NCBI GenBank assembly: GCA_013695685.1
Contig: JACCZY010000078.1
Span: forward strand, 1-35,991
DNA from: Geodermatophilaceae bacterium
GTDB lineage: Bacteria; Actinomycetota; Actinomycetes; Mycobacteriales; Geodermatophilaceae
DNA: 35,991 bases
Reading direction: 5' to 3'
In this document: positions 22,662 to 35,991 of the stretch, piece after piece
Numbering within the stretch: position 1 is the first letter of the stretch
Layout: each line of letters begins with the position of its first letter
Notes under the pieces: model-generated
Databases searched by the model: none
The model's input: only the letters and a program-made list of their open reading frames with translations
Told to the model about the DNA's origin: nothing
Position numbers and translations under genes: made by a program

Positions 22662-22717
22662 TTCCGTGACTCGGCTGCGGCCGAGTCGCAGCCTTTTGTC
22701 GGACCCTGAGGCTAGCT

Positions 22718-22733
22718 TCGAACGTATGAGCGA
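22718..22733 (+). promoter_or_regulatory. degenerate LexA/SOS-box-like site overlapping the DUF222-HNH start codon
   Basis: TCGAAC-GTAT-GAGCGA against actinobacterial TCGAAC-N4-GTTCGA: perfect left half, 4/6 right half. Confidence 0.5.
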
Positions 22734-24081
22734 ATCAGTTGCGGGTGTCGTGTCGGTGGAAGAGCTCGGTGAGGACATCTGCCGGCTCGCCGCCTCGCTG
22801 GCTGCAGCGACGTCGCGGTGGTTGCTGATGATCGCCGAATTCGACCGGCGCGAGGGCTGGGGCGGGATCGGAGTCAAGTCGTGCGCCCATTGGCTGAGCT
22901 GGCGATGTGGGTTGAGCCCAGGCACCGGCCGCGAGCATGTCCGGGTGGCTCGCGCCTTACTTGCCTTGCCGCTCATTGCCGCGGCCTTCGCAGCCGGATC
23001 GCTGTCCTACTCCAAGGTCCGTGCGATCACCCGGATCGCCGACCAGGACACCGAGGAGGACCTGCTCGCCCTGGCCTTGTCCGCGACGGCCGCCCAGGTA
23101 GAGCGGGTAGTCCGCGGCTGGCGGACTGCCGAGTCTGCCAACGCTCCGGACCAAGACGCCCGGCGGGACGTGAGTTGGCACTGGGACCGGGAAGGAATGC
23201 TCATCGTGCGAGCCCGGCTGGGACCAGAGGAAGGCGCACTCTTCCTCGCCGGCTTGGAGGCGGCCCGCGAGTCCGAGTCCGAGTCCGAGTCTGATGCGAC
23301 CGACGCCCAAACCGAGCAGATTAGGGCGGATGAGTCAGAGATGGCGACCCCGACCGATGACGCCGACGGATTCCCGCGGGAACGTCCAACCGACCCGGCC
23401 GCCGATGCACTGGTCAGCCTGGCGCAGACCTACCTGGACCCGGACCCGGACAGGCGCAGCACGGCAGCCCGCCATCAAGTGGTCGTCCACGTCGACGCCG
23501 CGGTGTTGGCCGACGACACAGCGGCCGGAGCGGCGCACGTTGAGAACGGCACCGCGCTCAGTCACGCTCAAGTGCGGCGAATCGCCTGTGACGCCGCGTT
23601 GGTCGTGCTGTTACGCGACGGAGCCGACGTCCTCGACGTAGGGCGAAAGCGCACGATTCCCACCCGCATGCTGCAGGCGATCTGGGCGCGCGATCGTGCC
23701 TGTCGCTTCCCCGGATGCACCGAACGCCGGCGCGATCGTGTGCAGGCGCACCACATCTGGCACTGGGCAGACGGCGGCCCGACCTCGCTGTCAAACCTCG
23801 TGCTGCTCTGCCGATTCCACCACCACCTCGTGCACGACGACGGCTTCGGCGTACGCAGGGGTTCCGACGGTGACCTGAGTTTCACCACCCCCAGCGGGAT
23901 CCCTGTCCCGGAACACCCCACCTGGCTGCGCCCCGACGAAACACCGGCACCGACACTGGCGGCAAAAGAGCCGTTGGCGCAATGGGACGGCCAGCGGCTG
24001 GATCTGAACTACGCCGTAAGTGTCCTCCTCAGCCGGCGCAGCTACGTCCACGACCGCCGAGGCCGGAAGACGGCCGCCTGA
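22726..24081 (+). CDS. DUF222 / HNH endonuclease domain protein (13E12 repeat family)
   Basis: C-terminal HNH 'ARDRACRFPGCTERRRDRVQAHHIWHWADGGPTSLSNLVLLCRFHHHLVHDDGF' and N-terminal DUF222-like helical region. Confidence 0.94.
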   Translation: MSESVAGVVSVEELGEDICRLAASLAAATSRWLLMIAEFDRREGWGGIGVKSCAHWLSWRCGLSPGTGREHVRVARALLALPLIAAAFAAGSLSYSKVRAITRIADQDTEEDLLALALSATAAQVERVVRGWRTAESANAPDQDARRDVSWHWDREGMLIVRARLGPEEGALFLAGLEAARESESESESDATDAQTEQIRADESEMATPTDDADGFPRERPTDPAADALVSLAQTYLDPDPDRRSTAARHQVVVHVDAAVLADDTAAGAAHVENGTALSHAQVRRIACDAALVVLLRDGADVLDVGRKRTIPTRMLQAIWARDRACRFPGCTERRRDRVQAHHIWHWADGGPTSLSNLVLLCRFHHHLVHDDGFGVRRGSDGDLSFTTPSGIPVPEHPTWLRPDETPAPTLAAKEPLAQWDGQRLDLNYAVSVLLSRRSYVHDRRGRKTAA

Positions 24082-35102: not shown

Positions 35103-35288
35103 CTAGCCGACGAGGACCGCGAGCAGGAGCATGATCGCCACGCCGAGCACGACGGTCCAGCCGACCGCCACCCCGAAGCTGAGGTCGAATAGCGACATCA
35201 AGCCGAAGGAGACCAGCCCGGCGAGCAGCAGCAGAGCGACAGTGAGGTAGAGCAACCTGGTTCGTGTCGAATGTCGTCTGACCGCCAT
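35103..35288 (-). CDS. small membrane protein, two predicted TM helices
   Basis: 'LLYLTVALLLLAGLVSFGLMSLFDLSFGVAVGWTVVLGVAIMLLLAVLVG'. Confidence 0.65.
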   Translation of the reverse strand: MAVRRHSTRTRLLYLTVALLLLAGLVSFGLMSLFDLSFGVAVGWTVVLGVAIMLLLAVLVG

Positions 35289-35505
35289 GCGGCCAGTATC
35301 CGCAATCCCGCAAGCTGTTCAAGACGCCAGAGGGACGAAGATCACGCGATGTGCTAGGGAACACGGTGGCAGTGCCGAACCAAGAATGCGAGTGGCAGCG
35401 CGACATCGCCAGCCGTGGGGGGGCGCCGGACAAGCGGCCTGTGGCGATGCACCAACAACGCGCGGGGCGCTTCGTTCAGTTGTCCACAGATTTCTGCGCG
35501 GGGGG

Positions 35506-35546
35506 TTGACATGCCTCGCAGGCGATAGTATCGAACACATGTTCGA
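35506..35546 (+). promoter_or_regulatory. promoter-like elements with perfect LexA SOS box TCGAACACATGTTCGA (35531-35546)
   Basis: TTGACA 35506-35511, TAGTAT 35526-35531 (14-nt spacer, short), SOS box TCGAAC-ACAT-GTTCGA containing the ATG at 35539. Confidence 0.82.
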
Positions 35547-35991
35547 GCACGCAATCAGCGCGGACCGCGAGATCATCGATCGGCTCCGCGAGGCCGAACG
35601 GCAGATCGCGGTCCTGCACGCCGAGCAGCTGGACATGATCACCGAGATGTACCGCCGCGCACGGGACTGGATCAGTGCCCCGGCCGATACGCCTGGGCTG
35701 GTCGATGCCGCAGAGGTCGCCGCCGCAGAGATCGGGGTGGCGCTGCGGATCGCAAGGCGCTCGGCGGTGGATCGGCTCGGCCTGGCCGTGCACGTCTTGC
35801 AGGGTTTGCCAGCCACGGCTGCGGCGCTGCGCTCCGGGGAGGTGAGCTTGGCCAAGGCGCGGATCATTGCCGACGCCACCGCCGACCTGACCGACCAGCA
35901 CACCGCCGAGGTGGAAGCGCGGGTGCTGCCTCGGGCTGGCCGGCAGACCCCGGCCGGGCTGGGCGTGTCGGTAGCCCGCGCGGTGCTCGCC
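35539..35991 (+). CDS. DUF222 (13E12-family) protein, N-terminal part, truncated by window end
   Basis: 'EVAAAEIGVALRIARRSAVDRLGLAVHVLQGLPATAAALRSGEVSLAKARIIADATADLTDQHTAEVEARVLPRAGRQTPAGLGVSVARAV'. Confidence 0.9.
   Translation, partial: MFEHAISADREIIDRLREAERQIAVLHAEQLDMITEMYRRARDWISAPADTPGLVDAAEVAAAEIGVALRIARRSAVDRLGLAVHVLQGLPATAAALRSGEVSLAKARIIADATADLTDQHTAEVEARVLPRAGRQTPAGLGVSVARAVLA

Follow-up and report, generated by a model that had tools for sequence, protein, structure and literature searches.

We consider it very probable that, in the window analysed here, a LexA operator sits on the point where transcription of a leaderless DUF222 gene begins. The window is a whole contig of 35,991 nucleotides from the 2.98-Mb metagenome-assembled genome (MAG) of a Geodermatophilaceae bacterium. 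A perfect LexA (SOS) box shares a base with a -10 hexamer at one end and encloses the gene's likely start codon at the other (Table 1). In undamaged cells a LexA dimer bound to this box would cover the promoter from the final -10 base through codon 3 and block RNA polymerase, whilst DNA damage would free the promoter through RecA-stimulated self-cleavage of LexA. Transcription would then begin at or beside the A of the ATG, as its spacing from the -10 hexamer suggests, and the product would be an mRNA with AUG at its 5' end, presumably translated with no help from a Shine-Dalgarno sequence. The right half of the operator is coding, and the protein accordingly begins Met-Phe-Glu (Met/Val-Phe-Glu/Asp in its relatives).

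Table 1. Positions of the sequence features discussed in the text, numbered along the window
Feature	Position	Strand	Remarks
LexA (SOS) box TCGAACACATGTTCGA (TCGAAC-ACAT-GTTCGA)	35531..35546	+	Perfect match to TCGAAC-N4-GTTCGA
ATG, likely start codon	35539..35541	+	Box positions 9-11; followed by TTC GAG (Phe-Glu), also operator bases
-10 hexamer TAGTAT (TANNNT)	35526..35531	+	Final T is the first T of the box
TTGACA	35506..35511	+	Identical sequence and spacing in nearest homologue (L051/L045)
DnaA-box-like element TTGTCCACAG	35480..35489	+	Conserved in nearest homologue; similar TTTTCCACAG in two others
DUF222 gene, 5' part, protein MFEHAISADREI...	35539..35991	+	Ends at contig end
Second DUF222 + HNH gene region	22696-24075		PafBC-like element, -10, degenerate LexA box
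PafBC-like promoter of second DUF222 gene, TTGTCGGAC (7 of 9)-N8-TAGCTT	22696..22718	+
Degenerate box TCGAACGTATGAGCGA, 2 mismatches	22718..22733	+	Same box position taken by ATG 22726 of the second DUF222 + HNH gene

The LexA box and its gene

The first-pass annotation had read the box as an exact match to the actinobacterial consensus with the ATG in its N4/right half, making the operator partly coding, and this description holds in sequence, coordinates and frame: the A and T of the ATG occupy N4 positions 3 and 4 and its G opens the right half. TAGTAT, likewise reported there, lies 7 nt (35532-35538) before the ATG, the spacing of about 7 nt from a TANNNT hexamer that is expected of a leaderless gene, and no Shine-Dalgarno sequence was found within 25 nt upstream of the ATG. 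A canonical -35/-10 promoter was sought at this gene and none was found; TTGACA lies only 14 nt from the -10 hexamer, and its role as a -35 is uncertain because this spacer is short. DnaA-box-like TTNTCCACAG sites occur upstream of several DUF222 genes in either orientation (13 in the forward and 9 in the reverse sense, none in the coding control), including the window element at 35480-35489 and sites at L049, L051, L053, L109-L111 and L194.

The encoded 151-aa fragment is a DUF222 domain (PF02720; 35.3 bits against a curated cut-off of 24.4). Its C-terminus lies beyond the contig end, and a homologue of 518 aa (L047) carries, by Pfam, DUF222 only, with no HNH domain. Contigs also end inside DUF222 genes at C157 and C276 of G000 and at C119 and C5 of G001, a genus mate with the same gene, three of them near codon 140-150, which suggests near-identical paralogues that broke the assembly. 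A copy of window positions 35275-35433 (95.7% over 161 bp) lies on the minus strand at L011 (G000:C202, 2100-2367) and runs straight into the middle of a DUF222 frame, with promoter, box and N-terminus absent; this locus may be a truncated paralogue, a strain variant or an assembly artefact. A plasmid or phage origin was rejected, since a tblastn search with the paralogue gave no match in the plasmid or phage collection.

Perfect boxes are expected from base composition at 0.0008 per window and 0.07 per 2.98-Mb genome, against one present in the window and five in the genome, all at SOS or DUF222 genes. Sites with up to two mismatches number seven in the window, compared with 1.55 +/- 1.25 in shuffled sequence. 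The existence of such two-mismatch sites is the one point in favour of a chance match, a reading to which we attach a negligible probability and which we reject given the expectation, the count in the genome, the reversed controls and the conservation of the box in homologues (see below).

Other LexA boxes in the genome

The genome encodes LexA (PF01726, 93.4 bits, on contig C100). It also encodes PafC; an adjoining gene for another WYL protein was assigned to PafB, and a TatA-like start, recognised by eye, lies downstream. One further perfect box, identical to that of the window and with the ATG in the same place, opens a DUF222 paralogue on contig C276; of the other three, one stands at dinB, immediately behind an ATG, one precedes a putative imuA'-imuB-dnaE2 cluster and one a putative uvrA gene, these gene names having been assigned by eye from the translations. 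Degenerate boxes with an ATG at the same position are found in further DUF222 genes of the genome, at 22726 in the window (Table 1) and on contigs C8 (TCAAACCTATGAGCGA) and C221 (TCGACGGTATGTTCGA).

These sites bear on the idea that the box no longer works or serves another regulator, for instance an ArsR-type protein, as might be imagined from the speculation that ArsR regulators can occlude SOS boxes (PMC8151990). We regard this as very unlikely, since the box is the exact LexA consensus in a genome that encodes LexA, the other perfect sites include those at dinB and before the genes read as uvrA and imuA'-imuB-dnaE2, and the box is still perfect in homologues whose flanks have diverged.

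Recurrence in the genus, order and phylum

A search of the genus with two paralogues as query gave seven close homologues, the gene discussed here included, in four genomes (Geodermatophilaceae MAGs). All seven carry a perfect box with an in-frame ATG or GTG at box positions 9-11, and in each a -10-like hexamer ends on the first T of the box. When the seven promoters are aligned the box, its N4 centre excepted, is the only long invariant block. Two more distant homologues in the genus have TCGCTCGTATGTTCGA in the same register.

We then surveyed 184 DUF222 gene starts from the genome itself, its relatives and a sample of the phylum; these genes share ancestry, Pfam score played a part in their selection, and the counts that follow are of non-independent events. 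A box with at most one mismatch lies near the start in 84 of the 184. Relative to the box, TANNNT hexamers are found at -5 (27 genes), -6 (26), +7 (14) and +16 (7), with few elsewhere, and in-frame start codons peak at +8 (26), +6 (9), +19 (8) and +33/+34 (25). An ATG or GTG at +8 is in frame in 26 cases against 13 and 4 in the other two frames; when a TANNNT 5-8 nt before is added, the box overlaps an in-frame start codon in 29 genes against 7 and 2.

The predicted operator is thus found on DUF222 promoters in several registers. The first, which includes the gene discussed here, has the start codon inside the box; codons 2 and 3 (TTC GAN) are then part of the operator, and proteins of this register therefore start M/V-F-E/D. 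In the second the box encloses the -10 hexamer and is closely followed by the ATG, whilst the third, frequent in the other genera of the family, has the start codon about 28-36 nt past the start of the box, often behind a purine-rich, Shine-Dalgarno-like stretch. A further arrangement, with TTGACT and a -10-like hexamer 17-18 nt apart and a LexA box occupying this spacer, was seen at L080 and L199. A quick tree of the 184 N-terminal domains, built on a short alignment without branch support, has at least 18 changes of the positions 9-11 register, which only suggests its repeated gain or loss.

Independently of DUF222, the pattern TANNNTCGAACNNRTGTTCGA (-10, box and start codon) was sought in 299 genomes of the order. 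It is present in 98 of them and in 36 of 74 genera, and the reversed pattern in none. Amongst 71 occurrences that were read, chiefly from one family, 53 begin a DUF222 frame exactly at that codon, two stand ahead of DUF222 but out of frame with it, and the remaining ones open some other long frame or none. Three of this remainder begin other repair genes at that codon, namely DinB (L223, L231) and a UvrD-like helicase (L206), each with a perfect LexA box, the same -10 spacing and the start codon inside.

These comparisons support the start-in-operator arrangement as a register that recurs among DUF222 genes and is met now and then in dinB and uvrD-like genes. The first-pass annotation had singled out the exact overlap with the start codon and proposed comparing DUF222 start regions in this and related genomes: the overlap is real, but what appears peculiar to the locus is shared by 7/7 genus homologues and is one of several registers among the 184 starts. 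The same annotation had suggested LexA control and a leaderless mRNA, and both gain support from the comparative geometry in genus, order and phylum; the leaderless mRNA, to which the 7-nt spacing from the -10 hexamer also points, we regard as probable.

Choice of start codon

Taken by itself, the presence of an ATG in a LexA box is weak evidence, because the box before the genome's lexA gene, TCGAACACATGTTTGA, has the same ACATG core and yet opens no gene; the weight comes from in-frame use, the fixed -10 spacing and recurrence. The LexA operator might accordingly be genuine and its inner ATG a by-product of a favoured box centre, with translation beginning upstream, for example at the in-frame ATG 35287, or downstream. 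Besides the shared core of the lexA box, two observations speak for this and against our preferred reading: the reading frame stays open for 288 nt 5' of ATG 35539, and other DUF222 genes have their start codon beyond the box, in other genera of the family often 28-36 nt past the point where the box begins. Third-position GC, however, is 0.87 downstream of ATG 35539 and falls to a non-coding 0.54 upstream, and the alignment with the paralogue starts at the M-F-E of the protein; for these two reasons ATG 35539 is the likely translation start. In-frame use of the inner codon also prevails by 53 to 2 in the order-wide search, and we consider the by-product reading improbable, albeit less so than a dead box or a site for another regulator.

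PafBC elements on DUF222 promoters

Upstream of the 184 DUF222 genes the 8-mer with the strongest enrichment is TGTCGGTG, found in 36 genes (reversed word, 1), which is the core of the PafBC promoter tTGTCRgtg-N8-TannnT (PMC5656591). TTGTCRGTG (at least 7 of 9 positions), followed by N7-9, TANNNT, N5-8 and an in-frame start codon, occurs in 49 of the 184 genes, compared with 3 and 0 in the other frames, and these 49 include the paralogue on C276 and the second DUF222 gene of the window. In 19 of the 49 a LexA box with at most two mismatches is also present, at -19 (7), -8 (10) or -6 (2) from the start codon, and one further gene has a weaker LexA site, downstream. Judged by their promoters, genes with both elements would come under both damage responses. 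The gene at 35539 is not one of these: 8 nt before its -10 hexamer ACATGCCTC matches TTGTCRGTG at 2 of 9 positions, and PafBC control was rejected for it on this sequence.

Relation to known systems

In Mycobacterium tuberculosis 13E12/HNH genes, likewise DUF222-type genes under an SOS box, are LexA targets, e.g. Rv0515, Rv1702c, Rv3074 and Rv3776 (PMC5005354, PMC4181829), and five HNH genes are RecA-dependent and mitomycin-induced (PMC8151990). The LexA motif reported for that species, MKWMTCGAAMRYWTGTTCGA (PMC4181829), already holds NTG in the register described here. M. tuberculosis has many leaderless mRNAs that arise from TANNNT promoters (PMC3898074), and its LexA is itself leaderless (PMC2897130). 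The gene at 35539 resembles these mycobacterial transcripts in having TANNNT close upstream of the start and no Shine-Dalgarno sequence, but differs in that the whole interval from -10 to start codon is taken up by the repressor site, which runs on into the coding sequence. The PafBC promoter finds its counterpart in the 49 DUF222 genes above, with the start codon 5-8 nt after the -10 hexamer, and not in the gene at 35539, which is without the element. Whereas mycobacterial recA has separate PafBC and LexA promoters (PMC5656591), those of the DUF222 genes that carry both elements have them on one promoter.

In the literature searched we found no statement of a start codon inside the box, of a box base common to the -10 hexamer, of a family-wide register or of DUF222 genes combining PafBC and LexA elements; the two main M. 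tuberculosis LexA-regulon papers lay outside that search, and an earlier mention is possible.

Implications

On balance, and with considerable reserve, we favour a broader picture in which the damage-controlled DUF222 promoter is compressed into about 45 bp, the PafBC element, -10 hexamer, LexA operator, transcription start and start codon overlapping in a few fixed registers. Such a promoter would act as an 'activate and de-repress' gate, and the first three residues of the protein (M/V-F-E/D) would be fixed by the repressor site; the gene at 35539 would be its LexA-only, leaderless version. The geometry also suggests that, where initiation is leaderless, a single repressor dimer can cover promoter, transcription start and start codon at once. 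What looked like an oddity of a single locus becomes a rule open to testing on data already available, and M/V-F-E/D next to TANNNTCGAAC may help to correct start-codon annotation. For the biology of the family, the arrangement would link both DNA-damage responses of actinobacteria to a set of multi-copy genes whose function is unknown, through an operator placed tightly enough to dictate the N-terminus of the protein.
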